From [Leptolyngbya] sp. PCC 7376 (GTDB lineage: Bacteria > Cyanobacteriota > Cyanobacteriia > Cyanobacteriales > MRBY01), in assembly GCF_000316605.1 (NCBI RefSeq), contig NC_019683.1:914036-978035 (forward strand): 64,000 nt of DNA, written 5' to 3'. Of this stretch, positions 4,701 through 21,818 are shown piece by piece. The position numbers were made by a program, and so were the translations under genes. The number at the start of each line of letters is the position of its first letter. Within the stretch, counting starts at the first letter, position 1. Under the pieces are notes generated by a model. That model ran no database searches. It was not told the DNA's origin and saw only the letters and a program-made list of their open reading frames with translations.

Positions 4701-6752
4701 TTCATTGATATTGACTGGATCATCACGGAACTGTTTCTCTAATTCAATAGATGCAACATCATTAACTTCTAGATCCCTTCGAGCACGGAATCTATTACTG
4801 ATCCCGCCATCTGCAGTGACATCTCCTGGGTCAATATCATTCCTATTGGTTCCAGCTGTAGCACCAGTAGCGACAACATCGACAGTCACAGTACAGCTAC
4901 TATTCGCCGGAATCGTACCACCACTCAAACTAACTTGGTTACTCCCAGCTATTGCTGTTGGTGTACCTCCACAAGTGGTACTTAGATTTGGAGTAGCCGC
5001 AATTTCAAGTGGCGGAGAATTATCAGTGAAAACATCTGTGAATTGAACATTTGTCAAAGATGAATCAATTGTGTTTTCGAGGGTGATTGTCAGAGTCGTC
5101 GGGACATTGAGATTCGCTACGTTGCCATTAGCATAGTTTTTCCCAACGATAATTTCTGCAGCTCGCAAATTATCACTAGCTTGATTGCTGTTCGTGACAC
5201 CTTGAGTTGAGCTGAGTGAACCAATAGGAATTATATTTGGTAAAACACCTCCTGCAGTTGCGGTTACATCAACTTCAATACGACAAGTTCTCCCTGCAGG
5301 GATCGTCACTCCTTGAATCCCGAAAAAAGTATCTCCAGCAGCTGGGTTCCCTGGAGTACCTGAAGCATCATCGACAAAACCGCCTATGGCACAATCACCA
5401 TTCGTTTCGATGAATGCGTTAGGAGGATCAGCAACAATAATATTTGGGTCGGTAAATATATCAATCAGCTCAACCCCTTGCAAATCAACAAGATCAGACT
5501 CATTCGAAATATTAATTCTGAGAACAGCGGGATCCCCAATACCAATGGGATCATTCCGAAATTCTTTCTCTATTGTTGGAGCCGTAATACTGTTTTGAAC
5601 ATTTAGATCTGCCGTTGCGGGACTTGCATTACTGACTCCTTGCCTCGTATTAATGCTACCAGCAGCCAAAGTATTGGTGAAGCTTCCAGTAGTGCTAGAA
5701 ACAACAGGAACACTAAAAGTACAAGTAGCTCTGCCTGGAATAGTGACATTAGATAAAGTCACAGAAGTCGAGGTCTGTGAGATTGACCCTCCAACACATG
5801 TAGCATCATCTTTTGTTGCTGGTCCGTTTGTTGTCACACCAGCTGGCAAATCATCTGTGAGATTTACTTCTGTCAGGTCGACAGTACTGTTATTCGCGAT
5901 AACAACTTGCAAAGTCGACTCATTAACAGCTCCAGGAGTACCGTTATTGACAAAAATAGTGCTTGGGCTAAAAGATTTCGATAAACTCGGGTCATCAACA
6001 GGGTTCACTGTCAAACCAACAGAACCTGCCGCAGAATTCGTTTCTCCTTCAGCAGTCGTTAAAGCATTTGCAGGAATAACTAAGTTACTTGTGCCCTGCA
6101 TCGTTGTTGTAATACTGACTCTGAACGTACAGGTTCCATCAGTACTTCCTACACGGGGAGGTACCGTGCCACCCTCTAAGTCAAAGACTGACTGTCCAAT
6201 TGTTGCATTCACAATCCCAGATCCACAGTCAGTCATCGCATTTGTTGGGTTTGCGATGTCCATCCCTGAAGGAAGGTTAACTGTCAAATCTGCATTTGTA
6301 AGCTGAAAGGTCTCCGCATTAAAAATCTGGACAATGGCTGTCGAAACACCACCAGGGTCAATACTAGGCGGATCAAACGCAGGTACAACGTTAACGATCG
6401 CCCGGGCAGGAGAGATAAAGACAACGAAGTTTAAGAATAGGAAGAAGATCGCAGAGACAACCCCTAGAATCCTAAATCTCCAACGCCTCACCCATCGCGT
6501 CACATTCGGGAAATCCGTATTTCTATCCCACCAGCGTTGTTGACGTGCTTTCCCTCGCTGAAAGCTAATCTGACTCCGTCGCTGCAATACTCCCAAGATT
6601 GGCAGCTTAGAAGCTGGCTGCTCTGGGTCACGCCAAGACTTTGGTAAGAGCCAGTCCATTACGCCGTAGAACAAGCCAAGCCAAGCTTGCCAGATTAAGG
6701 CGGGGAATCGCTGGAAAAAGTTTTGGTGGCGTTGGGGTTTCTTAGAAGCCAT
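1710..6752 (-). CDS. Giant exported protein with ten DUF7933-like beta-sandwich repeats and a C-terminal DUF11 domain
   Basis: 1680 aa, function unknown. Residues 1-93 are basic and rich in W, R and Q; residues 94-115 form one hydrophobic helix ending in SPARA, so the protein is either cleaved near 118 or anchored there. About ten tandem units of 120-140 residues follow. Each has the pattern K.FSP..I.PGGTS.L.I.L.N, then LTDTLP, a Cys in TPNIGGTC or TTCGG, a second Cys in IPNGGCTISVDVTS, and NTIPAG..TT.G..N. These match my recollection of the 'conserved repeat domain'/DUF7933 class. The last 230 residues resemble DUF11 (GDEVEYTIYFLNSGDASAESV). Two cysteines per unit suggest a disulfide in each repeat (inference). 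It is the last gene of the minus-strand surface cluster, 299 bp after the beta-helix gene. A stalk or fibre on the cell surface is plausible. The start at 6752 has a weak ribosome-binding site. Confidence 0.85.
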   Translation of the reverse strand: MASKKPQRHQNFFQRFPALIWQAWLGLFYGVMDWLLPKSWRDPEQPASKLPILGVLQRRSQISFQRGKARQQRWWDRNTDFPNVTRWVRRWRFRILGVVSAIFFLFLNFVVFISPARAIVNVVPAFDPPSIDPGGVSTAIVQIFNAETFQLTNADLTVNLPSGMDIANPTNAMTDCGSGIVNATIGQSVFDLEGGTVPPRVGSTDGTCTFRVSITTTMQGTSNLVIPANALTTAEGETNSAAGSVGLTVNPVDDPSLSKSFSPSTIFVNNGTPGAVNESTLQVVIANNSTVDLTEVNLTDDLPAGVTTNGPATKDDATCVGGSISQTSTSVTLSNVTIPGRATCTFSVPVVSSTTGSFTNTLAAGSINTRQGVSNASPATADLNVQNSITAPTIEKEFRNDPIGIGDPAVLRINISNESDLVDLQGVELIDIFTDPNIIVADPPNAFIETNGDCAIGGFVDDASGTPGNPAAGDTFFGIQGVTIPAGRTCRIEVDVTATAGGVLPNIIPIGSLSSTQGVTNSNQASDNLRAAEIIVGKNYANGNVANLNVPTTLTITLENTIDSSLTNVQFTDVFTDNSPPLEIAATPNLSTTCGGTPTAIAGSNQVSLSGGTIPANSSCTVTVDVVATGATAGTNRNDIDPGDVTADGGISNRFRARRDLEVNDVASIELEKQFRDDPVNINERSRFRLRIRPDSNVTDLSVTDTLPAGLVIDNPANITTNSNCRDDTGAPLTITAVPGSNTLAASGVEILSGQRCNIQANVVSDTNGSYFNEVPIGAITTNEGSTNTSPASDTLNVIGINLAKEFTPSIIAPGGRSRLRVTFTNNQAFSLTDVNLTDNFPPDTTAIAVANPPNASTTCGGVASATAGGTSLSLTGGTIPAQVGAVPGICTLEVDVTSTESSGNYVNTIPADSMTTAEGISNLEEATATLEFSPLTLTVAKSFNPLSVTAGTASELTVQLFNPSPSEEYLDVSFVDNMPTGMQVFAPPNASTTCTDGVISANSGDGSFSLSGATLPANSSCIVTLDVTSTVNATLINTIPVAGASTFQGATNTTPATASLANSPGVGVAKEFTPNIVEPGGTSRLTITVINGNDTQALTDLDLTDVMPVGVDLAATPNIANDCGGTVNPNTAADPDQLELTGASLGTESTCQFSADVVVTNPGSYENQIPAGSITTAEGASNPVAVSDTLVAAQRPSITKAFSPDVINPGGTSTLTLNLGNTNTNPITLTSTLTDTLPTNVAIASTPNIGGTCTNGDITATAGGGTVTYANGAAIPNGGCTISVDVTSTVSGSYTNTIPAGDLQTTAGNNPDPATDDLLVRTPPSIAKSFSPNSIAPNGTSVLTITLSNVNADPQTLTSDLIDTLPDDVVIAGTPNIGGTCTTSSVTAVAGSNMVTYATGAIIPNGSCTITVDVTAATEGTKTNVIPVGELVTDVGSNNTPATDDLIVTTTVSTDAELILVKRISAVRRGGAILGTGDRPGGQDTFVFNDFVAAPGETEPTILARAAEDNDPNWPDPDNTYLSGALDAGEIQPGDEVEYTIYFLNSGDASAESVRLCDVVPDNMSYVPSSMELFLDNTDPIGSPTSPEAGTLLNATSGLSDSYLDGDRGSFYPPGIAPVPSTLCQRGSTNVDSGSTNTTGAVVIQIVDSTTTPSQIDGATAPGTPPNSYGFIRFRVTTE

Positions 6753-7051
6753 TGAAGATCAAATCAGACGACGTATAAATTACTGAGTCGGAACGCAAGG
6801 TCAGGGCTAGGAAATTAGTCAAAAACCGTCGTTCTATGTAGCGCTTTGGTTTTGCAGCTGAACTAATCAGTTACAGGATAAATCCTTAGAGTTATGTCTA
6901 TGGTATCTCCCAAATATTGGACGATAAGAAAAAGGTTTTTATGGAAGGATTCGCGTTTTGGGTCATTGGAGAAGAAAACATTGCTTTTTAAAAAATATTG
7001 GGGTGTTGGGAAATGCGTCGAGGAGGAAGAAATTCTTAGAGAAAAATGGTT
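6753..7051. other. Intergenic, 299 bp, no gene seen
   Basis: Gap between the beta-helix gene and the giant repeat gene, both transcribed leftwards. No open frame with a ribosome-binding site and no tRNA-like fold was found. It could hold a separate promoter for the giant gene, but I see no clear -10/-35 pair. Confidence 0.5.
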
Positions 7052-8752
7052 TTAGCTACGACATCGTTCTGGTATCTCTGGCAATACAGTAGCGTCAAAT
7101 TGTTGTTCAACGGGTGATTGGAAAGATTGGATCATCGTATTCCGCGCGGGCTCTGATGTTCCATATTCAGGCATATAGGCGATCGCACTATAAACAGTCC
7201 CTAATTCAAAGTCATTAAATTCGAAACTAAAGCGACCTTCTTCATCAGCTGTGGTTTGGGTGATTTTAGTGTTGAGAGTACCACTCTTAAGGTTTGGCTC
7301 TTGGACTTGGTAAAGCACAATCTCCGCACTAGGGTCAGCAACGCCATCGAAAAAAACTTTGCCATTAATAGGATAGAAGGCTTCGCTCAAAAATTCTGGG
7401 GAATTAATCGCACCATTCGCCGTGTCTTCGCGGCGGTTCAGGGAATCACGGGAGGGGTTCTTGCCATCTGCAACCTGGAGTTCTTGGCGACCGACAGACT
7501 GACGGGTAATGAGATCAATACTTAAACCTTTAAGGCGAGCAAATTGATTATCGACGATTTCGTTGCGATAACTTTCACTATAGGCGGCGATCGCCACACC
7601 AGAGCCATTTTGATCAGTGATAAGGTTATTACTAATGAGATGGTCATTACCAGACAAGAAAATAGCGGCCCGCGAGACATCGAGGCCATTATTAACAATG
7701 CGATTGTTCATCACATTAGTCTGACCTTCAGTGCGATAGAAATAAATACCACTGCCGCCATTCCGACAGATCAGATTATTGTCGACAATAGTATCTGTGA
7801 CATTGCCACCAAAGCGAATTCCATCGGGCATCCCAGCTAAACCATTACCAATAATTTCGTTATCAATAATGGTTGTATTTGTAGCCTCAGTCCCCGTGAC
7901 TAAGCCACTGGCATCATGACCAATAATTCGATTATTCGTAACTGCGGCGTTCGCGGCATCATGGAGCCAAATGCCAAATGCAGAACGTAAATCGGATATT
8001 TTGCCATCTGGCATAATACCTAGCCAATTTGATGTAAGTGTGACATTTTGAGGGATAGTGGTTTCATACTCATCAGGTAGTGTCACTAGATCATCGGGAT
8101 GAGGCAAGAGATGAACTTTCCCCACCCAAAGTCCTGCACTAATCGTATTGAAGACAAGGTCAGGAAATAACGGATTAAAACCATAAATGCTCAATCCATG
8201 CACTGTCACATCATCTGCTGCAATGGCTAAGCCCCGTGGGACAATACTTTCAATCGCGGGAGAAAGACTAATTATAGGTCGGACAAACTCGCCAGTTTCT
8301 GGGTCAAATTGGGCTTGACTGAACCCATCAATCTCGACACGATGGGTACGAATCGGTGGTAATAAACTGGTTAGCTCAATCTTGGTTTGTTCAGGAGGAA
8401 GGTCAAACTGCACAACATGACCTTCCTCTCCTACTAGCGTTTCGATCTGCGTTTTCTCAGAATCACTAAGGACATGAATTTCGGCTTTTTCTTCTTCGGT
8501 TAGCTCATCATAGTTTGCGGGGAATTCCCATAGGATATCCTCATTCAAAAAGGCGATCGCCTCCCGTAGATTTAGCCCTTCATCTGGAACGATTTCGTCC
8601 AGTAGCGAAGAGTTAACTGTGACTTGGTAGTAAAGCTGAGGCGTCTCAATATCGACATCATTCGCTAAGACCTGCGGCGATCGCCCTATCGAACTAGCCA
8701 AAACTAGAGAGCTGAGAAGAAATAAGTTGCGGTATGAAGTAGAGCCAATCAC
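7052..8752 (-). CDS. Exported right-handed parallel beta-helix protein
   Basis: 566 aa. The frame opens at GTG (8752), since no ATG lies between the upstream stop and the signal peptide. That signal peptide has a hydrophobic core LFLLSSLVLASS and ends near PQVLA. Residues about 170-420 are a ladder of N- and I-rich turns (NNRIIGHDASGLV, DNEIIGNGLAG, NNLICRNGGSGIYF, NNLITDQNGSGVAI), the pattern of PbH1/NosD-like pectate-lyase folds. A short Ig/CNA-B-like end follows (GKVFFDGVADPSAEIVLYQV ... DEEGRFSFEF). No catalytic set of a polysaccharide lyase could be picked out, so it may bind or organise surface glycan or protein rather than cut it. It lies 61 bp after the beta-barrel gene in the same direction and is likely co-transcribed. 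Confidence 0.8.
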   Translation of the reverse strand: MIGSTSYRNLFLLSSLVLASSIGRSPQVLANDVDIETPQLYYQVTVNSSLLDEIVPDEGLNLREAIAFLNEDILWEFPANYDELTEEEKAEIHVLSDSEKTQIETLVGEEGHVVQFDLPPEQTKIELTSLLPPIRTHRVEIDGFSQAQFDPETGEFVRPIISLSPAIESIVPRGLAIAADDVTVHGLSIYGFNPLFPDLVFNTISAGLWVGKVHLLPHPDDLVTLPDEYETTIPQNVTLTSNWLGIMPDGKISDLRSAFGIWLHDAANAAVTNNRIIGHDASGLVTGTEATNTTIIDNEIIGNGLAGMPDGIRFGGNVTDTIVDNNLICRNGGSGIYFYRTEGQTNVMNNRIVNNGLDVSRAAIFLSGNDHLISNNLITDQNGSGVAIAAYSESYRNEIVDNQFARLKGLSIDLITRQSVGRQELQVADGKNPSRDSLNRREDTANGAINSPEFLSEAFYPINGKVFFDGVADPSAEIVLYQVQEPNLKSGTLNTKITQTTADEEGRFSFEFNDFELGTVYSAIAYMPEYGTSEPARNTMIQSFQSPVEQQFDATVLPEIPERCRS

Positions 8753-8813
8753 GATTCTAAAATTCCAATTAATGGTCCGAGCAATAGAGAGATTTCATGT
8801 CACGACAAGGGAT

Positions 8814-11800
8814 TTATTCACGGTCATCAGGTAAGAGCCACCCCCTAAATAAACCGTCTAATTTAACGTTGACCCCTGCATAAACCCCTCCGGCTTCTCT
8901 CGCACCATTGAAGTCATAGTCATCGACGCGGCCGAAAGAATAGCCAGTGTAAACTCGTAGATCAGGTGTGAAATAATAGCCTGTCTCAAGCATGAAGCCC
9001 ATTTCACTAAAGTTGGCGGAAGCCTGACCAATCCAGCGTCCCTCTACAGCGACATCCCATTGGTAACCCAAGCGATATCTAGCACGGAGTTGACCCAAAT
9101 GTACGGAGCTATCAGCGACGAAATCATCCGCCAAGAATGTGGTGCTGTTGCGGAAAGCATACTTCCCATAAAATTCCCACTGCCAATTAGGCGCATAGAT
9201 TGCTTCGAGAGCAAACACGGTTTCCTCGGAGCCTGTACCACTACCAAACAAAATGGTGTCAGGAATGACCGAAGGGTTTTGACGGTGCTCAAATCGGAAT
9301 AGAGCATTGAAATTATCACTTTCTGGATCGCGATAAGCAAGACCTAATCGTAAATTTGATGTGCCGCCCAGCTCTTCATCAAAGGTTTGGTTCGCTGTTT
9401 GCGCGTAGTTATAACTAAACAAAGCAGTTAATGAAGGTGTAACTTTGCCTGCTGCATCAAGATTAATAACTGTGTTGCCGCCTTGGGTAGAGTTGCGTCG
9501 CTCCCATCGCCCAGAAACCTTAAAGTTTGCATCATCGGTATATTCAAAGCCGACATTAAAAGACGTTTGGCCATCAAGACCCAAACTAGAAGCTCCTTGA
9601 CCTACTGCAAAAGGTTGACGGAATTGAAGATCATTCCCAGTACGACCGAAGTTTTGGAACGTGTATTGATAGCCAAAATCAAGTCTTAAGCCTGATAAGA
9701 CATGCCATTTTTGCTGCAAGCCAAGAGTACCGATGCCTGTCATGCCATCTACACCACCGTTGATGTTGTATTTTGCATTGATGGTTGTGTCCGTACCCAA
9801 GGCATAATCTGCGTTTAAGCCAACTGACGTAATACTTTTTCCAGATTGAGGGCCTCGCGTAAACCAGGATGTACTGTAATTTAGGTTGAGCCAATCAGTA
9901 AGGCGATACTCAATACCCAATAATGTGCGATCGCCAGTCACACTATCCGCAGAACTAGATAAGCCTAACTCGTTTTGTGCCCGAACAGTAATCCGATCCG
10001 TCAAAGGTAACGTTAAGCGAGAACGCAATACCTGAGAATTGGATTCAAGGACATTCGGGGCACGGCGATCACTACGGTCGCGGGATACCCAATCAAGAGC
10101 AACTTGTGCCTTCCCGATTCTCTGTTCGATACCTGCAGTAATCGTTGTTAAGCTATTATCAACGGTAAAACCAGGTACTGGCTCAAAACCAGGATTGATT
10201 AGTTCTTCAAAATCATCTAGGGGACGAGGAGGAGTGCCAAAATTGTCCTCATGATCATACTTAAAGTTAAAGTTGGTCGTTGGACTTAATCGTGCGGTTG
10301 TCTTGAGACCATAACGAGTTTGGCCAGGGACAAAACTGAGCGTCGCATTATTGGCAAATCCTGGGTCAACGTTTCGATAGTAGGCATTTGCAGTGAGCCA
10401 ATCACCGATTTTTGTATCGACTTCAATGCGATAGGCTGACCCTTCAACATCACCTTGGAAAGCTGAGAAATTTTTCGAGTGAGCAAATTCAGCGAGCACA
10501 GTGGTATGGTCACCAAAACTCAACTTACTGTCAACACCAAATAACTCAAAGTCATAGAGGTCACGGTCTTCCTTAACGTAAGAGGCTCCTAACCAACTCT
10601 CAGACTGGAAATCACGGTCGAAATGATAACGAACCCGTCCACCATAGACACTGGTATCGCTGCTACTGGCATCTTCATACTGATAAGTTGCCACAATGCG
10701 ATTAACTAAGACTTCACCAAATTCATTGGCATCAGTAGTGTAAATAGGGTCACTGAAAAGGATAGAACCACGATCATAGTCAATCTCATAATCCCGACCA
10801 CGTTGTAATTTTTCTCGCCGTGTGACAATTCCAGGACGATTGAATTCTTCTGATTCGAGGTAAATATCTTCTGAACCAGCCACAAGTAACCGTCGTGAGA
10901 CAAAGTAGTAACCGCTAGTACCATCAGGAACAATCACATCTCGTTGAAAGCCCTCAACAGAATTGCTATGAAAAGCAGTCAATTCTAAATCACCGAGATT
11001 ATAATGGGCTTTTAGGCCGTGGAGATCACGATTTGTAGCACTAAATTCTTGAGATTCTGTGGAAAATTCACGGACGTTGTAGTCCCCCCACATAATGAAG
11101 TCGGGGTTGGCATTTTCGACAGAGGAGGCGCGCTCAAATCGCAAGTAAACTTGGTCAATGGATGGAGTGGTTGCCTCGCGGCTAGAACTCGTACCATAGA
11201 CTGGATATGTATATTCTGATGATTGGTAATCTCCAAATAAGCGGTTACTACAATCACAATCTTCATTAATCGGGCGATCGCTGTTATAGGCACCAGTAAA
11301 TTTCCATTCACCGATACTGCCCGTCGCAAAGACAGCCGAATCTACATCAAATTCGTGATCATTATCACCATCAATCGGGAGAAAATACTTAAAGCGGTCA
11401 AAGAAATCTGTTCCTCTTGCGCCATAACGCAAATCAAAGTAGCCAGAGATGAGTGGAACTTCTCGTAATTGAGGTTTTTGTAGGAGTTGAGTATAGGCTG
11501 TAAGTTCCCCAGCTGACGCGTTTAAAATGAGCGTTTCTGGCTCTGTTGTCGATTGCAGTTGGGCAGTAAATTTTCCATCTGTTGACTTTACTTGAAAGCC
11601 TGGTTGGTCTGCGTCTAAGTCGACACCAACAAATTCACCATCACTGCTAAATAGAGAAACAGTGGTATTCCAAGTTGAAGCAGTCCCTTGTTCATCGTAG
11701 AAAGAACCAACAATGGTTGCAGTGGAGCGTCCATCAGCAATGATGCTATTTTCCTTGGTACGCAGGCGCATTTCCGTTGGCAAACCGGGAGCAATTACCT

Positions 11801-12317
11801 TCGCCGCAGTCGAGTGAATAACCCCATCGATTTCAACGGTTGCGGTGAGGGTATTTTCTCCGGGAGGGAAAATGACACCATACCAAGTGGTATTTGTCAG
11901 ACCTGCACCATTGTCTACATTTGTCCGACCAATTAACTCATTGTCGACAGGAATATCATTTACTGTCAGAGTGACAACACCACTACCGCGATGCTCAACA
12001 ATGACACTACTGGAAATACTCTCTAGGGGCTTATCGCTAGTCGGCGTGAGGATTTTGATCTGTTCCTCGGCGATCGCCTCTGTATTACTAGTAACATCGG
12101 CAGTCTCGCTGGCATCATTATCAGAAGACTCAGCGACTGTGACGGTGGGCACTTGAGCAATCATTGTATCTAATTCTGTTTCTCTAGAGTCAGACTGGTT
12201 GGCGATCGCTGCAAAAATCACAGGTTGGTAGCTTCCCCATAAAACACCACCGCTGAGAGCACACAATAATAAACGTGCGGAGAAATGTAGACCTTGTTGG
12301 TTTGATGACTGTCGCAT
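8814..12317 (-). CDS. Large outer-membrane beta-barrel protein with N-terminal Ig-like domains
   Basis: About 1167 aa when started at the ATG at 12317. That ATG follows a strong GGGGAGGTG six bases upstream and lies one base past the stop (12319-12321) of the preceding gene. A TTG further upstream would add seven residues and overlap that gene. Signal peptide: LLLCALSGGVLWG, cleavage near FAAIA. Two Ig-like beta modules follow (residues about 85-280), the second with the intimin/invasin-type phrase MRLRTKENSIIADGRSTATI. The rest, to the C-terminus, alternates polar and hydrophobic residues with many aromatic strand ends (FNFKYDHEDNFGTP, LNLNYSTSWFTRG, VYTGYSFGRVDDYDF), typical of a large barrel. 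A linker GRDYEIDYDRGSILFSDPI precedes the barrel, a phrase I associate with big outer-membrane proteins next to DUF11 proteins. No TonB plug was recognised. Likely the membrane anchor or secretion pore for its neighbours (inference). Confidence 0.8.
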   Translation of the reverse strand: MRQSSNQQGLHFSARLLLCALSGGVLWGSYQPVIFAAIANQSDSRETELDTMIAQVPTVTVAESSDNDASETADVTSNTEAIAEEQIKILTPTSDKPLESISSSVIVEHRGSGVVTLTVNDIPVDNELIGRTNVDNGAGLTNTTWYGVIFPPGENTLTATVEIDGVIHSTAAKVIAPGLPTEMRLRTKENSIIADGRSTATIVGSFYDEQGTASTWNTTVSLFSSDGEFVGVDLDADQPGFQVKSTDGKFTAQLQSTTEPETLILNASAGELTAYTQLLQKPQLREVPLISGYFDLRYGARGTDFFDRFKYFLPIDGDNDHEFDVDSAVFATGSIGEWKFTGAYNSDRPINEDCDCSNRLFGDYQSSEYTYPVYGTSSSREATTPSIDQVYLRFERASSVENANPDFIMWGDYNVREFSTESQEFSATNRDLHGLKAHYNLGDLELTAFHSNSVEGFQRDVIVPDGTSGYYFVSRRLLVAGSEDIYLESEEFNRPGIVTRREKLQRGRDYEIDYDRGSILFSDPIYTTDANEFGEVLVNRIVATYQYEDASSSDTSVYGGRVRYHFDRDFQSESWLGASYVKEDRDLYDFELFGVDSKLSFGDHTTVLAEFAHSKNFSAFQGDVEGSAYRIEVDTKIGDWLTANAYYRNVDPGFANNATLSFVPGQTRYGLKTTARLSPTTNFNFKYDHEDNFGTPPRPLDDFEELINPGFEPVPGFTVDNSLTTITAGIEQRIGKAQVALDWVSRDRSDRRAPNVLESNSQVLRSRLTLPLTDRITVRAQNELGLSSSADSVTGDRTLLGIEYRLTDWLNLNYSTSWFTRGPQSGKSITSVGLNADYALGTDTTINAKYNINGGVDGMTGIGTLGLQQKWHVLSGLRLDFGYQYTFQNFGRTGNDLQFRQPFAVGQGASSLGLDGQTSFNVGFEYTDDANFKVSGRWERRNSTQGGNTVINLDAAGKVTPSLTALFSYNYAQTANQTFDEELGGTSNLRLGLAYRDPESDNFNALFRFEHRQNPSVIPDTILFGSGTGSEETVFALEAIYAPNWQWEFYGKYAFRNSTTFLADDFVADSSVHLGQLRARYRLGYQWDVAVEGRWIGQASANFSEMGFMLETGYYFTPDLRVYTGYSFGRVDDYDFNGAREAGGVYAGVNVKLDGLFRGWLLPDDRE

Positions 12318-12318
12318 C

Positions 12319-14871
12319 TTACTGCACCTCCCCATCAATAGCTGGTGTCACGGCAAAGTTCATACGTGCCAGACCTCCAGGTTCTAAACGCGCGACCCTT
12401 GACTGACCATTCTCTGCAATAAAGTAACGATTTGGCGCTAAGTCATACCCCGGAACACTCTCGAGATCGAGGATTCCAGTGTGATAGCCAGGTAAAACAT
12501 TGGCAACCGAGTACAAGCCATCAGCATCAGTCATAATGCGATTGCCATCTTCCAGAAAGATAACAGCATTAGGTATTCCTGGCTCTCCGGGTTGTTGATG
12601 ACCATCAAAGTTTTTGTCGACAAATACCCGACCAATCAACGTGCCGCAATCTGCAACAATACCCGGCTCGATGCGCAAACGGTGAATCGCTGGGCCATCA
12701 CCAACTGAAGTATTAGTTCGAGTCTTAAGACCTTCCACAAAGGCAAGATTTTCACCATCACCCCGGAAACCATCTGGTGTTACTTGAGCCGCATAGACCA
12801 AATCAAAGCTTTCACCCGTTTCGAGCGTAAAGTCTGGTGGCAATTGGAATTCAACATTACGTCCATTCCGGCTAACCGTTACCTCTAAAGGCTGATCTTC
12901 AAACTGAGCTTTCACCACATCTTCGACTAGCACCAAACCAGTGGGCAAGACATCATCGATCACAAGGGTATTCACCGGAGAACTCGATAAACTACGTACA
13001 TTTAAGCGATATAAAACGGTATCGCCTGGCTCTGCTGCAATGCGATCACCAACCTTAGTAATAGAGATTTCTTCAGCCTGACAAATCTCGATACTCGACA
13101 AAGTAAACGCAAAAATCCGTAAACCAACACTTTCTGCATCGGTAACTGTGAGAGTACCCTGCGCTGTAAATTGGTCAATTTGTATCGCATTGGTCAAAGC
13201 ACCAAGGGGACTGCCATCAATAGCAGTAGCTTGATACGTGACGATACTGCCTTGCCGTTGAATAATCTCAATATGGATCCGTCGTTGGAGAAAATTCGAA
13301 CCTGGTGGTGGTGACACGACCAAAACATAATTGCGACCCACATCTAACTGACCACGAGCATTATCTAACAGGAACGTGTAACGACCCTGATCCGCGTTAG
13401 TTAAGAAAAATGGATTTGCATTTTCGTCATTAGGTGCAAGACCCAACGGAATATTATTACCACCAATATCAGGGATTTCTGTAAGGGTTAAATCGGTTAA
13501 ACCTTGTAAGGGGAAGGTGGGATCATTAGAGCTGGTATTGTATAGCGCAACTTGGAAACCGGTGTAATCCTCTAATAGCCCCCCATCACAACTCCGAATT
13601 TCACCAAATGGATCCACTAAACCTAATTCAGATACAACAATCGTTAAAGATTGCTCCTGTTGTGCACCACCACAATTACCACCAAGATTCAAAGAAATAT
13701 TTAAATCATCAACATTGTTCAAACTACCAACCTGAACTTTAACGGAGAAGAAGGCCTCGGCATCCTCTGGCAAAAAGAAAGTTGTTGCATCAGCAGTATC
13801 TGAAGTAATTGTGCCTTCCGCTGCAACGGAATCATCGTCACGAACAACTCTGTAAGCGAGTTCTTCAATTGTCCCAGGGCCAGTCAAACCTGAGGCTTGT
13901 AATTCGGCGAGGGTAGGCAGTCTCAACTCATAGCTTTCATCAGTCTCATTGGGTAAAGAATACTCAAAAAAGACTTCGCTGCCAGACAGCAAGCTTGTAC
14001 CCTGCTGGTCTTGGATGCGATCAATCTCTTGGTTGAAATTTTCAAGGCTAGTACGGACAGTATCTTGATATGGCTTGCCTACTAATTGATTATCAAGAAG
14101 AAAACTTTGGATCTCAGCATTGATAATGTCAAAGTCTTCAGAACCTTCAATATTGAAAAGAATACTTTGAATGCGATTCTTAACTGTAGTGGCGATCGCC
14201 ACTACTTCACCATCTGGGACGCCAAACCGAATCAAAATATCAGGATGGGTAAAAGTTAAAATCTGACCCACTACTTCATCAGCAAGATTATCAGCAATTA
14301 AAGTCTGTTGTGCCGCTGTCAGATTTTGTTGAATGCGTTGAATCACATTGAGGACAGTATTTTCAAAAGAAATTTGCTCTGGAGTATTTAAAAAAGCCTG
14401 AATCCCGATCAAACTTTGACTCTCAGCTGCCGCTGCATCAAGACCAATTGCCAGTAGCTCAGTTTCTAAAGCATCAATGGCATAACCTAAATTAGGAACA
14501 ATATTGCCATTCTCATCACGAATCCCTAAAGTTTGAACTTGATTCAGGATATTGTCGTCGGAGTTCAGGTCTATTTCCTGTCCTTCTTGGAAAACTTGGA
14601 TAATAGGAGTACTAGCACCACCAGAAACAACGATATCCGGCGTTACCTGCCCAAATACACGGTTAAACGTCACAAACGCGTTGTTCGCGATATTCGCTTC
14701 TCTCGTATTGTTAAAAAATAAACCCTGACAAATTCTGGTACTACCAACTGAAGTGCCACTCGTTTGAGCAACAGAACTTGGCATTGGCACAACACTACTC
14801 CACATTAGGCTAGAAAGAGTCGCGGCCTTACAAGCTTGGGTGAATTGTTTTGAGAAAGGAAGATTGTTCAC
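12319..14871 (-). CDS. Exported protein with DUF11 and SdrD B-like domains
   Basis: 850 aa. The only possible start before the signal peptide is GTG at 14871. The signal segment (AATLSSLMWSSVVPMPSSVAQ) is followed by a long helical region at about residues 90-290, rich in Q, E and I, unusual among the otherwise beta proteins of this cluster. Mixed beta domains come next, then a DUF11-like module (about 600-730; GDTVLYRLNVRSLSSSPVN, LPTGLVLVEDV) and a C-terminal SdrD-B-like domain (about 740-850). The last carries the calcium-site phrase VDKNFDGHQQPGEPG and MTDADGLYSV. SdrD-B domains are known from calcium-rigidified bacterial adhesins. Its stop is 2 nt from the ATG of the outer-membrane barrel gene, so the two are probably translated together and may act as partners. 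Confidence 0.8.
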   Translation of the reverse strand: MNNLPFSKQFTQACKAATLSSLMWSSVVPMPSSVAQTSGTSVGSTRICQGLFFNNTREANIANNAFVTFNRVFGQVTPDIVVSGGASTPIIQVFQEGQEIDLNSDDNILNQVQTLGIRDENGNIVPNLGYAIDALETELLAIGLDAAAAESQSLIGIQAFLNTPEQISFENTVLNVIQRIQQNLTAAQQTLIADNLADEVVGQILTFTHPDILIRFGVPDGEVVAIATTVKNRIQSILFNIEGSEDFDIINAEIQSFLLDNQLVGKPYQDTVRTSLENFNQEIDRIQDQQGTSLLSGSEVFFEYSLPNETDESYELRLPTLAELQASGLTGPGTIEELAYRVVRDDDSVAAEGTITSDTADATTFFLPEDAEAFFSVKVQVGSLNNVDDLNISLNLGGNCGGAQQEQSLTIVVSELGLVDPFGEIRSCDGGLLEDYTGFQVALYNTSSNDPTFPLQGLTDLTLTEIPDIGGNNIPLGLAPNDENANPFFLTNADQGRYTFLLDNARGQLDVGRNYVLVVSPPPGSNFLQRRIHIEIIQRQGSIVTYQATAIDGSPLGALTNAIQIDQFTAQGTLTVTDAESVGLRIFAFTLSSIEICQAEEISITKVGDRIAAEPGDTVLYRLNVRSLSSSPVNTLVIDDVLPTGLVLVEDVVKAQFEDQPLEVTVSRNGRNVEFQLPPDFTLETGESFDLVYAAQVTPDGFRGDGENLAFVEGLKTRTNTSVGDGPAIHRLRIEPGIVADCGTLIGRVFVDKNFDGHQQPGEPGIPNAVIFLEDGNRIMTDADGLYSVANVLPGYHTGILDLESVPGYDLAPNRYFIAENGQSRVARLEPGGLARMNFAVTPAIDGEVQ

Positions 14872-14947
14872 CGAAAATTTACCCGTTCGTGGAGATCTTT
14901 AACTGCTGTGGGTCTAACACGCATAGTTATTCGTACAGCCGAGGGAG

Positions 14948-14979
14948 AGGGAGAGGAGTTACATCACCCAACTCTCCCT
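14948..14979 (-). promoter_or_regulatory. Bulged hairpin between two surface-protein genes
   Basis: AGGGAGAG(GAG)TT pairs with AACTCTCCCT across a 9-base loop, with one 3-base bulge. It sits between the stop of the 188-aa protein gene and the GTG of the 850-aa gene. No T-run follows on the minus strand, so it is more likely an mRNA processing or attenuation element than a simple terminator. Confidence 0.4.
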
Positions 14980-15007
14980 TACAAGGTTTCATTCAAACTC
15001 AGAGAAA

Positions 15008-15574
15008 CTAAGGAATCTGGACTTCGTAACTCGCTTCAACACCAAGCTGAGGAGTCAAAGTATTGTCAAATTCCCATTTCACATCGGTATACATATCCGC
15101 AGGAGCGGGCTGCTCTAGCAAAGAGCCATCAGGCTGCTGAACTTTAATGGTGGGATTAGCCACAAAAGTCTGACCATCATCAATACTGTAGGTGATCGTT
15201 GCACTGTTAACAGTCTGAGCAGACGCCAAGACATAAACCATTTGCTCTGGAATATCCTGACTAATCACGAGATTATCTGCATCCTGATTACCGAGATTGT
15301 CACCAGAGACGGTATAGCGAAGAGTCTCACCGGGCAAAACCTCTGCATTTGCACCAAGATCTTCCCAAGTAATAACCTCTTCCCCTTCTGCATTGAGGGT
15401 AATGATTTGCTTTTCGGCAACGAGGTTGAGCTGAACATCTGCTCCCTCAAGGGCTGCGAGCAAAGAGCTACCTGCTTGCTGGAGATTTGCCAAAACAGGG
15501 GAACCCACCAAAAGAGGAGCTCCGAGTAAAGCGAGGGCTGCACCTACAGCCAAAGGCCAACGTTTCATCTTCAT
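15008..15574 (-). CDS. Small exported DUF11-domain protein
   Basis: 188 aa. Signal peptide at residues 1-30 (MKMKRWPLAVGAALALLGAP, ending near SPVLA). The rest is one DUF11-type beta domain: GETLRYTVSGDNLGNQDADNLV, ISQDIPEQMVYVLAS, then VKWEFDNTLTPQLG near the end. Either of two close methionines (15574 or 15568) could be the start; AAGGA lies 4 or 10 bases upstream. The mature protein of about 158 aa is a single module, like a subunit or cap, whereas its neighbours are long multi-domain proteins. It lies 127 bp after the frameshifted DUF11 gene and 136 bp before the 850-aa gene, all in one direction. Function unknown; I infer a part in the same envelope structure. Confidence 0.8.
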   Translation of the reverse strand: MKMKRWPLAVGAALALLGAPLLVGSPVLANLQQAGSSLLAALEGADVQLNLVAEKQIITLNAEGEEVITWEDLGANAEVLPGETLRYTVSGDNLGNQDADNLVISQDIPEQMVYVLASAQTVNSATITYSIDDGQTFVANPTIKVQQPDGSLLEQPAPADMYTDVKWEFDNTLTPQLGVEASYEVQIP

Positions 15575-15701
15575 TATTTCCTTAAAAAGTTGTTCGTTTT
15601 ATATCAATAACGGAATCGCATGTCGCTGCCATCCTTAGGGAAAAGCCTTTGCATAGTTATTTTTCAGCTCAGCTAATCCCTAAATCATCGGCAACGAGTT
15701 T

Positions 15702-18457
15702 TTAGTTCACATTCCGAATAAAGGAGAAGGTTCCAGATTCACCAGAAGACACATTTCCGACTGTATTGCGATACTCAGTCACATCACCGGCAGCGGTTAG
15801 ACCGCCAATGTCTGTACCAGACGTGGGAGGTGTACCAACAGCACCACCATTGAAGTACTGAATCGTGCCTCGAGTAGCAACGGCCCCACCTGGGTTATTA
15901 CTGGTGTCAATTTCACCGTTTCCGTCGTTATCTTCTGCCCAGTTATTGTCTGTACCCGGATTTGCGGGTGAACCATCGCCCGCCACTGCGCCGAAGCCGT
16001 TCTCAGTCACCACAAGGTTTTGTGCTGTCAATACCGTGTTACCACTACCACTGGATGCTGCAGAGATGTTTTCGTAGGTAATTACATAACGAATCTGATC
16101 ACCCGGGCTTGCTTGTGGCTTCGGAGTCGTGCTGTCATCAAAAAGACCACTCGATGTTCCGTTGGCAAACAGAATTTCTGCCTGCTTAGTCAAACGGAGG
16201 AAACCGGTATAAACGTTGTCAATAGTGACGTTATTAATAAGCTCCGTGGTTGGGTTGAAAGCATCGTTACCATCGTTGTTGACATAAGCCACAAGAGGAA
16301 TCGAGTAGCCATTAAAGGCATTACCATTAGGCAGATCAACGTCAACTCGGTAGTCAAGCTCTTCTCCAATAGCGAGATCTTCGATTTCGACTGTATTACC
16401 ACTAGCTAGGACAAAATCAGTACCATTCCAGTTGTAAGTCGCAGTATCATTCGTGAGGTTACCGTCGCCATTCGCATCATCAGGGACACCATCATTGTCT
16501 TGATCCACGAAGATCGTCACAGTGGTGCCAGGCAAAAGTGTGTTGATTACATAATCACAAGAAGCACAGACGGCATTTGCATTAGCGGGTGAAATTGGGC
16601 GTAGTACAACATTTTCTAATTCGACACCAGATGTGTTTCGAACACTGTTTCGAATAGGCACTACAGCCGGATCGACTGTTCCACCTGTAACAACACCTTC
16701 AGCGACCGCTGCATTAGTAAAGTCGTCATTAACATTATTTGGTCCTACCGCAGTAGATTGATCTAATGGACCTGTCAAGAGGTTTCCAGCAACAGGTGGC
16801 TCCGGTGGGTTCTCAAGTTCTACCTTGTTTGGTTCACCATCCTGTCCTTCTCCGGTGTTGTTATTATCCGAATCAGCATCAGTACCGGGTACAGTCGAGT
16901 CAGGATCAGACAATGATGTAATTGGGTTTCCATTCGGGTCAACTAATGGATCACCGAGATCTTCTGGATCACGAGTAGGATCATAGTCACCATAGGGGCT
17001 ATCTGTACCATCATCATCTACTGGTGGATCTAGGTCACCATCATTGTCGCTATCGTCAAAGTTGTTTGGACTCTGGTCACCAGATTCATCAAAGACTACG
17101 TTATTGCCAGGATCGCCGTCCGTTTGACCCAAAACTTGCGCTTTATTGTAAATCGGACGAACTTCTGCAGTATTGCCATCAGCATCAAGATCACCTGCAT
17201 CAGTAGTAGCACCACTAGCTAACACTGACACTTCAAAGCCAGTAACGCTGGTATTGGAATTAACCGTACCATCGAGTACAAAACCAATTCTCGTTATCAC
17301 ACCAGCAGGAACAGCAGTTGTCCATGTTGCCGCCGTCGGCGCAGTGGTCAAAGGTGTATTTGTGTAAACTATCGTCCAGCCAGCAGGTGCGACTGGCGCA
17401 GGAATTGGAGGTACAGCCGTTGTACTATATACAGTTCCGGCTGGGATCGCATCAGAGACCAAAATACGAGTTTGAGCAGTACCATCAAGGCTAGCAAGTG
17501 GAGTACCTACCAAATTTGCCGCTTCAAAACCAGTCAAATTAGTCGGCACATCGCCAGCGACAGACAAACTCAAGCCATAGGTAATGATGTCATCAGTGAA
17601 AACGGTCGTAGTGCTGTTGTTGTTAACGCTAATTGCCGTTTTCAAAACCGTCGTAACCGCTAGAGGATCTGGGGCGGCCGTACCAACAACTAATGGAGCA
17701 GCAGTATCTGCTGCTTCACGCTCACCATTGACCGGAGTAGTCGCATTTCCATCAACCGCATTATCAACCGTTCTCACCTCTGTATTAAGAGGGGTATCTG
17801 GTAAGTCAGCTTGGTTTTGACTATCTGGGTTGCTGGAATCATTAGAATTCGTGTCACCAAGCTGTGCTGTGATCGTCGCACCAGATACTAGACCACCAGC
17901 AACTTCACCTTCAATCGTTACGACAATCGAAGTATCAGGGAGGATACTGGAAACAAGATATCCATTAGCTCCATCAGCAGTAACGGTAAAGCCAGCAGGT
18001 GGTGTACCAGTTAACGTTCCTTGTTAATCGTGACATCGGGCGTGCCATCGTTATTAACATCAATGAGAAGTCTTGGGTTGTCTAAGTTTGAAGTCGTCGT
18101 GTTGGCTGGAAGCGGCACGAAAATATCAGTTTGATCGTTACCAACGTTGGTAACTAAGAAAGGAAACTGAACAGTATCACCCGGAATAACGGAACCACCA
18201 TTTGAGTCGATTGGTGTTTGTGCAACGTTAGTGATACCGGCAACTTCTGCGATGGTTACGTTAACGGTATTAGACTCAGTTGTCTTGGGAGTACCGTTAT
18301 CATCGAAAGTTGCTGTAGCAGTGTTACTAATATTAGTTCCAGCCGCTGTCCCAAGTGATAGGACGGGAATAGCAAGATTGAATAGTCCTAGGCTTGCGAG
18401 CGTAATCCCTGCCGACAAGCGGACTATTCGTTGACGTTTATGCTTATGTTTAACCAT
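15702..18457 (-). pseudogene. Exported Asp-rich DUF11-type protein, split by a one-base frameshift near 18020
   Basis: The frame from 18457 encodes a signal peptide (RIVRLSAGITLASLGLFNLA) and a DUF11-like N-terminus, then stops at 18011 after NNDGTPDVTINKER. The next frame continues from the same spot (LTGTPPAGFTVTADG) and runs open to 15702. Adding one A to the AACAAGG run (minus strand, 18018-18023) gives INKGTLTGTPPAGF and a single protein of about 918 residues. The second part holds an aspartate-rich stretch (about 16830-17120: FDDSDNDGDLDPP, DADSDNNN), another DxDNDG motif (VDQDNDGVPDD), and beta modules with DUF11 character. The stretch resembles thrombospondin type 3 or calcium-binding loops. 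No classic -1 slippery heptamer is present, so a mutation or sequencing error fits best. It is the first gene of the surface cluster. The ATG at 18457 begins a normal signal peptide; an ATG at 18502 would add 15 unneeded residues. Confidence 0.75.
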
Positions 18458-18864
18458 AGTGCTTAGAGAAGTTGATTGGACTAATTCCTGGCGGTCATAC
18501 ATTCACATGTATGAGTTGCTCAGGAGCAAGACGTCTACTTGGTCGACTCGGCCAGTTTGTCATAGCATTTTGACCAAGGTGGAGAGCGTCGGGATGTTGT
18601 TTTTCGGGTGGCGATCGCAACCCTAGAACTCACATAAATTTATAACAAGAAAGCAGCCATGAACAAATATTCAAAAAGTATTTGTACAACTTTCTTGTGA
18701 AATGGTTTTTCGTCAAAAGGAAAATTTTCTTTTAAGGAGAATATTTTTCCATGAAAACCCACATATTTTTATTGTCTTGACATATTAAAAGCCTACCAAT
18801 CTTAAAAGTCAATGCAATCAGGCATTTGACTTAACCATTCTTATGTATAGGCAAACATCTTCAT

Positions 18865-19497: not shown

Positions 19498-20295
19498 ATG
19501 TCACATTTACGTCAGCAACAGCGTCAACTACGTCGTCACTCTCAAGACGAGCAACATAATTACATTGTTCCCAAATCTCACCTGACTCCTAGCATTGCGG
19601 CTCTAGACATGTTGTTTTGTTTCGACACTACTATTAGTATGTATCGTTTTTTAGAGCAGGTACGCAGTGATCTAGGGCGTCTGTCAAGAGTGATTCAAGA
19701 CAACATCCCTAAATCGAGGGTAGGGGTCATAGCCTACGGGGACTATTGTGATGCAAAAACAGCTTATGTGACAAGAAGTTTAGGTCTTACGACAGATATT
19801 GATACTATTTCTCAATTTCTGTGGCGGGTTCAAAAAACAGATGGTGGGGATTTTCCGGAAGCAGTGGAGGAAGCCTTGTTTGCAGCAAACCAAGTGAATT
19901 GGAGGCTTGGAAGTAGACGAGCGATCGCCTTGATTGGGGATGCACCTCCCCACGGTGTAATTGACTCCACTCGCAATTGTAAGTATGGACATTTTTGGCA
20001 GCAAGAGATTAAAACGCTCAAACGTAAAGGCATTAAACTCTACGCGATCCAGTGTGGTAGACAGCGAGATACAGAAAGAGTTTTTCGCGAGATGGCGCGA
20101 GAGACGGGTGGTGTCTATCTGAATTTAAGCAATATTAGTGATTTGGTGGATTTATTGATCGGTGTTTGCATGCAAGAAGTTGGTCTTTTGATGACATTTC
20201 AGGAGCAATTAAGGCAGACACAGCGATTAACGACATCAAAGAAAAGTTTATTGAATTGTCTGGGCCATGGCTCAGGGGGGCGGTTACTGCCATGA
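19498..20295 (+). CDS. von Willebrand factor A domain protein
   Basis: 265 aa, probably cytoplasmic (no signal peptide). Residues 36-225 form a vWA domain of the alpha-kinase-associated type: FCFDTTISM carries a metal-site motif DxTxS (D43, T45, S47) in place of the usual DxSxS, followed by GVIAYGDYCD (76-85), TDGGDFPEA (114-122) and IALIGDAPPHG (143-153). Such domains bind Mg2+ and a partner protein. The start has GGAG seven bases upstream. The last base pairs overlap the next gene as ATGA, so the J-domain/pentapeptide protein is almost certainly made together with it. The last 40 residues show no family signature and may exist mainly because of the overlap. Partner and substrate are unknown; I infer that the two proteins work as a pair. 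Confidence 0.85.
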   Translation: MSHLRQQQRQLRRHSQDEQHNYIVPKSHLTPSIAALDMLFCFDTTISMYRFLEQVRSDLGRLSRVIQDNIPKSRVGVIAYGDYCDAKTAYVTRSLGLTTDIDTISQFLWRVQKTDGGDFPEAVEEALFAANQVNWRLGSRRAIALIGDAPPHGVIDSTRNCKYGHFWQQEIKTLKRKGIKLYAIQCGRQRDTERVFREMARETGGVYLNLSNISDLVDLLIGVCMQEVGLLMTFQEQLRQTQRLTTSKKSLLNCLGHGSGGRLLP

Positions 20296-21818
20296 ATTAT
20301 TACGAAATATTGGGTGTGCCAGTTTGTGCGTCGCCAAAGGAAATTAAGCGGGCATATCGAAAAAAAGCCATTGAGATACATCCTGATACTTTGGGTGGAG
20401 AGGCGATGGATTCTCTACGTCAATTAGCGGAGGAACGGCTGAAAGAGCTAAATCTTATTTATGAGGTGTTGTCGGAGCCGCAGCAACGGTCCGAGTATGA
20501 TCAATCTCTTCATGGCGATCGCAAACAAGAGTTGGTGAAGGAGATTGATTATTTCTGTGAGCTAGGGGAACTGGAACAGGCGGTGGCGATCGCCAAAAAT
20601 TTGTACGGTTTATTTCCAACAGATAATGAGTGCGGCGATATCTTAGCGGAGGTTTTGTATGCTTTGGCTGTCGCTGTGTCAGAAACGATTACGGTGGATG
20701 AGCTACATAAAGTCGAAGCGTATTTAAAAGAAGCTTTAGCGGTTGTCTATTCGGCAGAGCTTAGGGCACAAGTCGAAGCAGATTTAGCGTTATTGCAGCA
20801 CCATGCTCACAAGGCAGAAACTTATCAAGCAAGCTCAACAGCCTCCGATGATGAGATCACGACAACAAGAGCTGTCAGATTATTGCAGGCAGGCGAAGCA
20901 GGTATTCGGGCGTGGAATTTATTTCGGCAATGTGAAACCTATATCCCAGATTTAAGCGGCATCGATCTCAGTGGAGCAGATTTAAGCGAAACGAATTTAC
21001 AAGGGGTTAGGCTCAATAAAGCAAAGCTGGTTGGCACTCAGCTCACAGGCTCCAATCTCGACGGAGCTGATCTCTCAGAAGCTGATCTCTCAGGGGCGAT
21101 CGCCGACCAAGGGAGTTTTATCGGTGCAAATCTGACCGCAACCCAATGGATAGAAGGCAGCTTTACAGGCAGTAATTTTTCAGACGCAAAATTCGATAAA
21201 GCAACCCTCAATCACGCCAACGGACAGCAAGCCATCTTTTGTAATGCGAGTCTCCAGCAGGTGCAATGGATCGACGGGAATCTTGACGAAACCCATTGTC
21301 ATAAAGCTAATTTTTCCGGCGCAATTCTCACCAATACAAAAGCGAAAAAAAGTATTTTCACAGAAGTGATTCTAGCAAACTCCCATTGGGAAAATGCCAA
21401 TTTAATGGACACTGATTTTTCGGGAGCAGACCTTGGCCGCGCGGAAATTATCAATGCCAATTTACAAGGCACAACTTTTACCCAAGCAAAGCTCGTTGGC
21501 ACAAACTTTAATGGCAGTAATATTTCAACTAGCAAAAGCTATTCTTATCACCATGTAGGGATTGACTTTTCAGGTTCGGATTTGTCTTGCGCCACCTTAA
21601 TTGGAGTCAATCTTTGCAAATCTGATTTTAGTGATGCAAAGTTGCAAAACACCAAATTTGACCATGCAGATTTAGGCGGGTGTAGCTTAGCAAATGCATC
21701 TATTAACAACACTAGTTTACTCGGCACGAATTTACGCGATGCAGATCTCACAGGCACAAGATTTTATTTCGCCTATGTCGATATTGAAACCAATATTGCT
21801 GGTGCTAAAGGAATCTAA
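20292..21818 (+). CDS. J-domain protein fused to pentapeptide repeats
   Basis: 508 aa when started at the ATG at 20292, which overlaps the vWA stop (ATGA) and has a GGGGGGCGG run upstream. An earlier ATG at 20166 would lie wholly inside the vWA gene. Residues 1-72 are a J-domain with MNYYEILGV and the essential HPD (30-32), so the protein should stimulate an Hsp70 (DnaK). Residues 80-210 are helical and may form short helical repeats. From about 219 to 500 there are pentapeptide repeats (DLSGADLSETNLQG, NLDGADLSEADLSGA), which fold as a right-handed square beta-helix. No Zn-finger or C-terminal DnaJ substrate domain is present. DnaK recruitment to something held by the pentapeptide solenoid or vWA partner is inference. 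Confidence 0.9.
   Translation: MNYYEILGVPVCASPKEIKRAYRKKAIEIHPDTLGGEAMDSLRQLAEERLKELNLIYEVLSEPQQRSEYDQSLHGDRKQELVKEIDYFCELGELEQAVAIAKNLYGLFPTDNECGDILAEVLYALAVAVSETITVDELHKVEAYLKEALAVVYSAELRAQVEADLALLQHHAHKAETYQASSTASDDEITTTRAVRLLQAGEAGIRAWNLFRQCETYIPDLSGIDLSGADLSETNLQGVRLNKAKLVGTQLTGSNLDGADLSEADLSGAIADQGSFIGANLTATQWIEGSFTGSNFSDAKFDKATLNHANGQQAIFCNASLQQVQWIDGNLDETHCHKANFSGAILTNTKAKKSIFTEVILANSHWENANLMDTDFSGADLGRAEIINANLQGTTFTQAKLVGTNFNGSNISTSKSYSYHHVGIDFSGSDLSCATLIGVNLCKSDFSDAKLQNTKFDHADLGGCSLANASINNTSLLGTNLRDADLTGTRFYFAYVDIETNIAGAKGI

Follow-up and report, generated by a model that had tools for sequence, protein, structure and literature searches.

A gene for a vWA protein and a gene for a J-domain protein, which overlap in a 64,000-nucleotide stretch of [Leptolyngbya] sp. 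PCC 7376 (contig NC_019683.1, positions 914,036 to 978,035; the window hereafter), belong to a genetic vWA-J module that is rare and occurs across phyla, a conclusion well supported by sequence comparison. Relatives were sought with the vWA alone and their neighbours were inspected afterwards. Among 11 loci whose vWA scored more than 300 bits, a J-domain gene adjoins the vWA gene in ten, and in the eleventh, from a planctomycete metagenome-assembled genome (MAG; G497), an Hsp70 carries the vWA fused at its C-terminus. We see an even chance that the two genes constitute one functional unit, namely a two-polypeptide specialised Hsp70 co-chaperone that would act as a client-specific remodelling switch. 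A little-known chaperone module is suggested by the occurrence of the pair not only in distant cyanobacteria but also in a planctomycete relative and in an archaeon. The pair and its parts are located in the window as follows.

19498..20295, plus strand: vWA protein gene (P0002), 265 aa
19624..19638, plus strand: metal ion-dependent adhesion site (MIDAS) motif D43-T-T-I-S47 (A4 alignment, residue table)
19837..19839, plus strand: MIDAS Thr114 (8/8 rows of A4)
19939..19941, plus strand: MIDAS Asp148, in the GDAPPHG motif (8/8 rows of A4)
20134..20268, plus strand: C-terminal helices past the vWA sheet (consensus DLVDLLIGVC..E.G.L...L..S/TK..L)
20292..20295, plus strand: ATGA stop/start overlap of the vWA and J genes (TGA stop 20293-20295, ATG start 20292-20294)
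20292..21818, plus strand: J-domain/helical/pentapeptide protein gene (P0001), 508 aa
20295..20501, plus strand: J domain, residues 2-70 (Pfam DnaJ PF00226, 6.8e-18)
20379..20387, plus strand: HPD motif, residues 30-32 (from the sequence)
20532..20801, plus strand: helical TPR-like segment, about residues 81-170 (alignments; helices in a low-confidence model)
20949..21815, plus strand: pentapeptide-repeat solenoid, about residues 220-508 (Pfam PF00805, 4.6e-49)

The vWA gene precedes the J gene in eight loci, those of the window's genome (G000), G072, G468, G138, G091, G494, G1084 and G1085, and follows it in two, G495 and G577; the taxa concerned are cyanobacteria, the UBA8530 class, the phylum of the planctomycete MAG and a Candidatus Argoarchaeum MAG. 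Whichever gene comes first, the J-coding part lies at that end of its gene which faces the vWA gene. The HPD motif is kept in all eight vWA-then-J loci and in G577, and the archaeal copy in G495 reads HSD. A fair test is offered by G577, G1084 and G1085, which lie outside profile A4 and were found by the vWA alone: an adjacent J gene was present in all three. In control loci, J domains were sought with a profile built from the J domains of the loci and by phmmer with that of the window. No J open reading frame (ORF) was detected in any of the 74 loci of a vWA group with 31-38% identity (L068-L141; 61 with more than 1.5 kb on each side; median vWA frame 376 aa), nor in any of 21 weaker order-level loci (L005-L025; flanks of at most 1.5 kb, with larger regions L039-L055 for 17 of them), and a single one of 46 viral-contig loci had a J ORF, about 5 kb away. 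A J link of all vWA relatives was rejected, since the group with 31-38% identity lacks it. Because the host genome (5.13 Mb, single contig) has 10 J-domain loci, we estimate the chance of adjacency to a given gene at about half a percent.

The family behind these counts is sparsely distributed. Within the order sample, a vWA match was obtained at E<=1e-10 in 25 of 148 genomes and at E<=1e-80 in four, namely the window's genome, G072 (73%), and G138 and G091 (both 59%); within the class sample, 9 of 388 genomes gave a match at E<=1e-30 and two at E<=1e-80, the window's genome and G468 (57%). A scan of genome contigs with the single vWA protein as query yielded nothing, and with alignment A1 as query it gave 138 relatives, of which the best 80 were kept. 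Those with at least 47% identity included Dolichospermum FACHB-1091 (apparently G468), Microseira wollei (apparently G091), UBA8530 (G494), Candidatus Argoarchaeum ethanivorans (G495) and UBA11371 (G496); the planctomycete MAG G497 followed at 38%. Profile A4 recovered 3 of 343 genomes in the phylum of G497 at E<=1e-50 (G497, G577 and G711), 1 of 237 in the class of G495 and 3 of 18 in the class of G494 (G494, G1084 and G1085). Plasmids gave distant matches only (8 records, 29-35%), and so did phages (37 records, with at most 37% identity among the best 10 of the 37). Distant vWA relatives, with at most 38% identity among the matches listed, were also seen in large viral contigs (L166-L211) and in crAss-like phages (H9-H18).

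When 12 loci were scored with the profile, 11 exceeded 300 bits, although the scores of eight of the 12 rows are inflated because those rows built profile A4; 22 control vWAs reached 186-217 bits (18 rows) or 94-125 bits (4 rows). The twelfth locus, G711, scored 213 bits, that is, within the control range, and its membrane-protein-like frame just upstream of the vWA carries a degenerate J-like stretch that reads HAD in another frame, so that G711 was not accepted as a clear family member. The count of 11 loci leaves out G711, G473 and G496. The latter two represent separate broken loci (L163 in G473, L066 in G496), in which the vWA end and the J domain are lost and other parts of both genes are adjacent; the vWA fragment of G473 is 59% identical over 69 residues, and the remnant of G496 scores 303.8 bits. 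The contig of G495, a MAG, carries a fragment of an archaeal-type phosphopantothenate synthetase (PF02006, 4.4e-38; under NCBIfam cut-offs) and, just past the vWA, a protein that weakly resembles a Methanosarcina S-layer domain (35.5 bits against a cut-off of 121.9), and from these sequences an archaeal origin of the locus appears credible.

The stop/start overlap of the two genes, which had been noted in a preliminary description of the window, was confirmed by the start positions in relatives. The automatic ORF list had placed the J-gene start at TTG 20166, which was rejected on the frame limits of relatives: the ATGA overlap was accepted because the open frames of G468, G138 and G091 begin just 4-6 codons upstream of the Met aligned to ATG 20292. 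In G072, a genome of the same genus, the overlap is likewise 4 bp long and reads GTGA (its GTG start picked by alignment), and the vWA C-termini of the two genomes are alike (GSGEGLLP and GSGGRLLP). Between them dN/dS amounts to 0.137 for the vWA (dS 1.4) and 0.047 for the J protein, where dS is saturated at 2.6. The frameshift artefact that had been considered possible is thus not what the locus looks like, as judged from the shared overlap and the low dN/dS of both genes. ATGA as a universal or defining mark of the pair did not hold, as junctions range from -8 to +23 bp and the order is reversed in two loci: with the vWA first they are -4 bp in G000 (ATGA), G072 (GTGA) and G1084 (ATGA), -8 bp in G138 and G091, 0 in G494, +10 in G1085 and +23 after GGAGG in G468, and with the J gene first the gaps are, from coordinates, about 35 bp (G577) and about 240 bp (G495).

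Both proteins possess the domains that had been ascribed to them. The vWA protein matches Pfam VWA (1.1e-6) and has all the MIDAS residues (D43-T45-S47, T114 and D148), conserved in the eight rows of alignment A4; its structure model is confident (predicted local distance difference test, pLDDT, 88), with integrin beta chains as the top Foldseek matches (TM-score 0.5-0.6). It is thus predicted to combine the Rossmann-like fold with the DxS/TxS, T and D metal site that characterise vWA/MIDAS proteins. Its C-terminal helices, predicted at residues 213-227, 231-240 and 246-257, occur in the archaeal and Hsp70-fused copies too. Position 46 of the MIDAS loop DTTISM is Ile in the window copy alone and Gly in the other seven A4 rows. 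The second protein, with its J domain and HPD loop, would by sequence be a J-domain protein. Its pentapeptide match is spread over 11 stretches, and the repeats cover about 280 residues up to the protein end. Moreover, a helical stretch that the preliminary description had not included lies between J domain and solenoid. This segment is common to the pentapeptide, HEAT and hydrophobic-tail versions of the J protein; the label TPR-like was given by eye and from weak Pfam matches that stay below threshold in G138 and G1084, with none in the window protein. The model of the whole protein is of low confidence (pLDDT 66) and usable for the repeat fold only; its first Foldseek match is HetL (3du1), besides MfpA, AlbG and Qnr. 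In sequence comparisons, the repeat part gave matches to designed pentapeptide solenoids and to HetL, NP275, MfpA and Qnr chains, and the NCBIfam cut-offs were missed for HetL (110.5 of 260 bits), Qnr (61.1 of 240) and Alr5209 (118.8 of 125).

The J and helical parts form a core that aligns across the vWA-then-J loci, the window and the UBA8530 class sharing 28-29% identity, and the tail behind this core is exchanged. Pentapeptide repeats are present in G000, G072 and G468, HEAT repeats (Pfam HEAT_2) in G494 (2.3e-17), G1085 (3.2e-24) and G1084 (4.5e-16), and hydrophobic segments in G091 (four) and G138 (one), in both after a charged stretch that resembles a coiled coil by eye. In G577 (four segments) and G495 (one) the hydrophobic segments come first and the J domain is C-terminal. 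Exchange is illustrated by G138 and G091, whose vWAs are 97% and J and helical parts 82% identical and whose tails differ. The solenoid as an essential partner was consequently rejected, because HEAT repeats or hydrophobic segments replace it elsewhere. Of the proposed link between Hsp70, vWA and beta-helix, the vWA-J part is borne out by its recurrence across phyla and by one vWA-Hsp70 fusion, and the beta-helix turned out not to be constant (HEAT in three loci, hydrophobic or coiled-coil parts in four). Three genomes of another family of the class (L147-L149) encode, in frames of 375-387 aa, a J protein whose match to the J-core profile is limited to the J domain, and the remainder of the L147 protein, the one of the three that was scanned, has no Pfam match. 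Searches with the J core used alignment A2, and the one that gave L147-L149 scored at most seven candidates per genome, so that its tally is a lower bound.

A connection to Hsp70 beyond the HPD motif comes from G497. The gene row at 4058-17805 of this locus (L220) comprises the Hsp70-vWA fusion (Hsp70 part PF00012, 9.5e-91), GrpE (2.2e-9), a second Hsp70 (3.8e-55), a 1325-aa protein without Pfam match, a GAP1-N2/GAP1-M protein (1.1e-16 and 1.0e-8) and DO-GTPase2 (3.5e-9). By sequence, this single locus is the strongest evidence for the Hsp70 link. It contains the DO-GTPase and GAP1 genes that define a GAP1-N2 conflict system, and the locus of the window pair does not: no GTPase, GAP1, GrpE or Hsp70 gene was found among the neighbours of the pair, profile scans of relatives for GTPase and GAP1 being confined to G497. 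The vWA and J genes also appear to have travelled together, since vWA identity and the identity of the J and helical parts are correlated over eight genomes (r = 0.92; none of 5000 permutations as high), which is consistent with joint inheritance or transfer.

If the pair acts as one co-chaperone, the HPD J domain would stimulate or recruit the host DnaK, and the vWA, through its MIDAS face, would bind a partner or client and bring it to the J protein or withhold it. The tail, pentapeptide here and HEAT or membrane/coiled coil elsewhere, might serve as a docking or localisation part. The most likely setting, as far as sequence relationships indicate, would be stress or conflict with invaders, because the vWA is akin to the one in the GAP1-N2/DO-GTPase/Hsp70 locus. 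A wider proposal, possible and put forward tentatively, is that such pairs represent a previously undescribed class of two-subunit Hsp70 co-chaperones in bacteria and archaea, in which the vWA would select the client or act as a metal-dependent gate and a tail swapped between lineages would retarget the complex. J proteins set the targets of Hsp70, and if a vWA were a conserved partner, clients would be selected or gated in a new manner; moreover, the Hsp70-vWA fusion in a conflict-type locus hints at how such switches arise.

Several observations weigh against a two-gene functional unit. The family is rare, with close matches in two of the 388 genomes of the class sample and four of the 148 of the order sample, the window's own counted in both, and joint inheritance is no proof of physical contact between vWA and J. 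The J- or Hsp70-linked vWAs (12 rows, G711 included) do not form one clade; a single clean clade was not obtained in the vWA tree, which has long branches and asks for two changes (approximately unbiased test, p = 0.043). Stimulation of Hsp70 is doubtful in G495 and G711, because the HPD motif is altered to HSD and, in another frame, HAD. The examined DNA flanking the two-gene loci contains no Hsp70 ORF. Hydrophobic segments were called by a simple hydropathy scan, in which single marks are weak because it also marks the window's own J protein (a weak segment, 117-135) and vWA (216-234). Finally, a sample of six genomes of the genus has the vWA in two and the J-pentapeptide gene in five, and three of these five (G029, G053 and G106) have no vWA in the genome or credible remnant nearby. 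The vWA is dispensable there, because the J-pentapeptide genes survive without it. The preliminary description had made its case depend on how widely the two genes are adjacent, and the outcome is divided: adjacency or Hsp70 fusion throughout the high-scoring loci, and absence of the vWA from most genomes of the genus with the J-pentapeptide gene. Among the loci found, no intact vWA above 300 bits occurs without J or Hsp70, so that the dependence looks one-way, the J-pentapeptide gene persisting alone and the vWA not.

These genomes bear directly on another explanation, which we consider rather unlikely, namely that the J-pentapeptide protein is the working unit, its beta-helix docking on a target, for instance a DNA-binding enzyme, and that the vWA is an optional accessory. 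Indeed, the gene is under constraint where the vWA is lacking (dN/dS 0.039 between G029 and G053), and its repeat part resembles HetL, NP275, MfpA and Qnr in sequence and HetL, MfpA, AlbG and Qnr in Foldseek. However, what stays constant across phyla is vWA plus J and not the solenoid, and the model of the J-pentapeptide protein is of low confidence; the fold similarity moreover says little about the target, because pentapeptide proteins are common in the genome (the whole J-pentapeptide protein as query gave 38 matches there, J-only ones included). Alternatively, the pair might be a reduced form of a GAP1-N2/DO-GTPase Hsp70 conflict system, an anti-invader switch with the variable J tail as effector or sensor. 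The only member without a J neighbour, G497, resembles the composition given in the available text of Kaur et al. (2020; PMC7159879), exchangeable repeat or hydrophobic modules stand beside a constant core, the distribution is patchy, a type IV coupling-protein gene lies two genes away from the G138 pair, and DnaJ has been reported, according to the accessible part of a 2025 paper (PMC12169576), in phage sensing by bNACHT25. This explanation is nevertheless unlikely, as no Hsp70 ORF lies in the examined DNA beside the two-gene loci and no GTPase or GAP1 gene among the window neighbours, PADLOC matched the J protein once, at 14 bits, and the vWA not at all, and within the genus an oxoprolinase gene adjoins the J gene, in G029, G053 and G106 as well. 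That unrelated genes came together by chance or hitch-hiking is very improbable: the independent loci are few and several are MAGs, but the adjacency recurs in both orders and several phyla, most vWA-then-J junctions are overlapping or tight, and a J gene was met in 0/74 control and 3/3 fair-test loci. The two-polypeptide co-chaperone is the reading that we favour.

Among known systems, those assembled by Kaur et al. (2020) are nearest. According to the text of PMC7159879 available to us, GAP1-N2 neighbourhoods contain HSP70 and GrpE, some of them a second HSP70, together with a FNIII protein fused to DnaJ or TPR, and in MoxR systems vWA proteins are often accompanied by pentapeptide, HEAT, TPR and coiled-coil parts. 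The J proteins of the window family share with the former, which are Hsp70/GrpE gene sets, the fusion of a J domain to variable repeat parts, and a member of the window's vWA family stands fused to Hsp70 beside GAP1-N2 and DO-GTPase2 in G497; they differ in carrying pentapeptide, HEAT or hydrophobic parts and not FNIII. With the MoxR-vWA ternary systems the pair has in common a vWA as chaperone partner and superstructure-forming repeats, but no MoxR-type AAA+ gene is found among the window neighbours, and the NTPase would here be the host Hsp70. A coarse Walker-A pattern scan of the loci of 10 relatives gave seven Walker-A-like ORFs, two named by Pfam (type IV coupling protein and DUF3854) and the others judged by eye. 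J domains and vWA co-chaperones likewise occur within one group of jumbo phages, where MoxR and a peptidase domain are the partners of the vWA; the portion of PMC7824862 at hand describes no vWA-J pair. The statement that no pathway of this kind has been described thus needs qualification, as HSP70-GrpE-DnaJ sets of GAP1-N2 systems are on record, whereas the stand-alone vWA-J pair is not described in the available text of the open-licence papers, of which PMC7159879 comes nearest and PMC7824862 second. The building rules are therefore known and the vWA-J combination is, in the text available, little described.

Class C-like J-domain proteins likewise combine an HPD J domain with a targeting region of their own; the window J protein differs in its separate vWA partner and exchangeable tail. 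The pentapeptide solenoid, by sequence and Foldseek, is shared with HetL, NP275/NP276 and MfpA/Qnr, but in the window protein it is fused to a J domain and a helical part, and it stays under the NCBIfam cut-offs.

The flanking genes on both sides of the pair lie on the opposite strand, leaving it as a stand-alone unit. Upstream, on the minus strand at 12319-18502, there is a run of surface-protein-like genes (DUF11/SdrD-like, DUF7925), the nearest of which (18011-18502) has no Pfam match. A promoter and terminator scan scored under its shuffle mean and carries no information. Downstream follow a GNAT acetyltransferase gene and a hydantoinase/oxoprolinase gene. In Dolichospermum, XisH and XisI genes come after the pair, and in G072 and G106 genes that resemble the surface-protein-like ones, as judged by eye, are situated close to the J gene.

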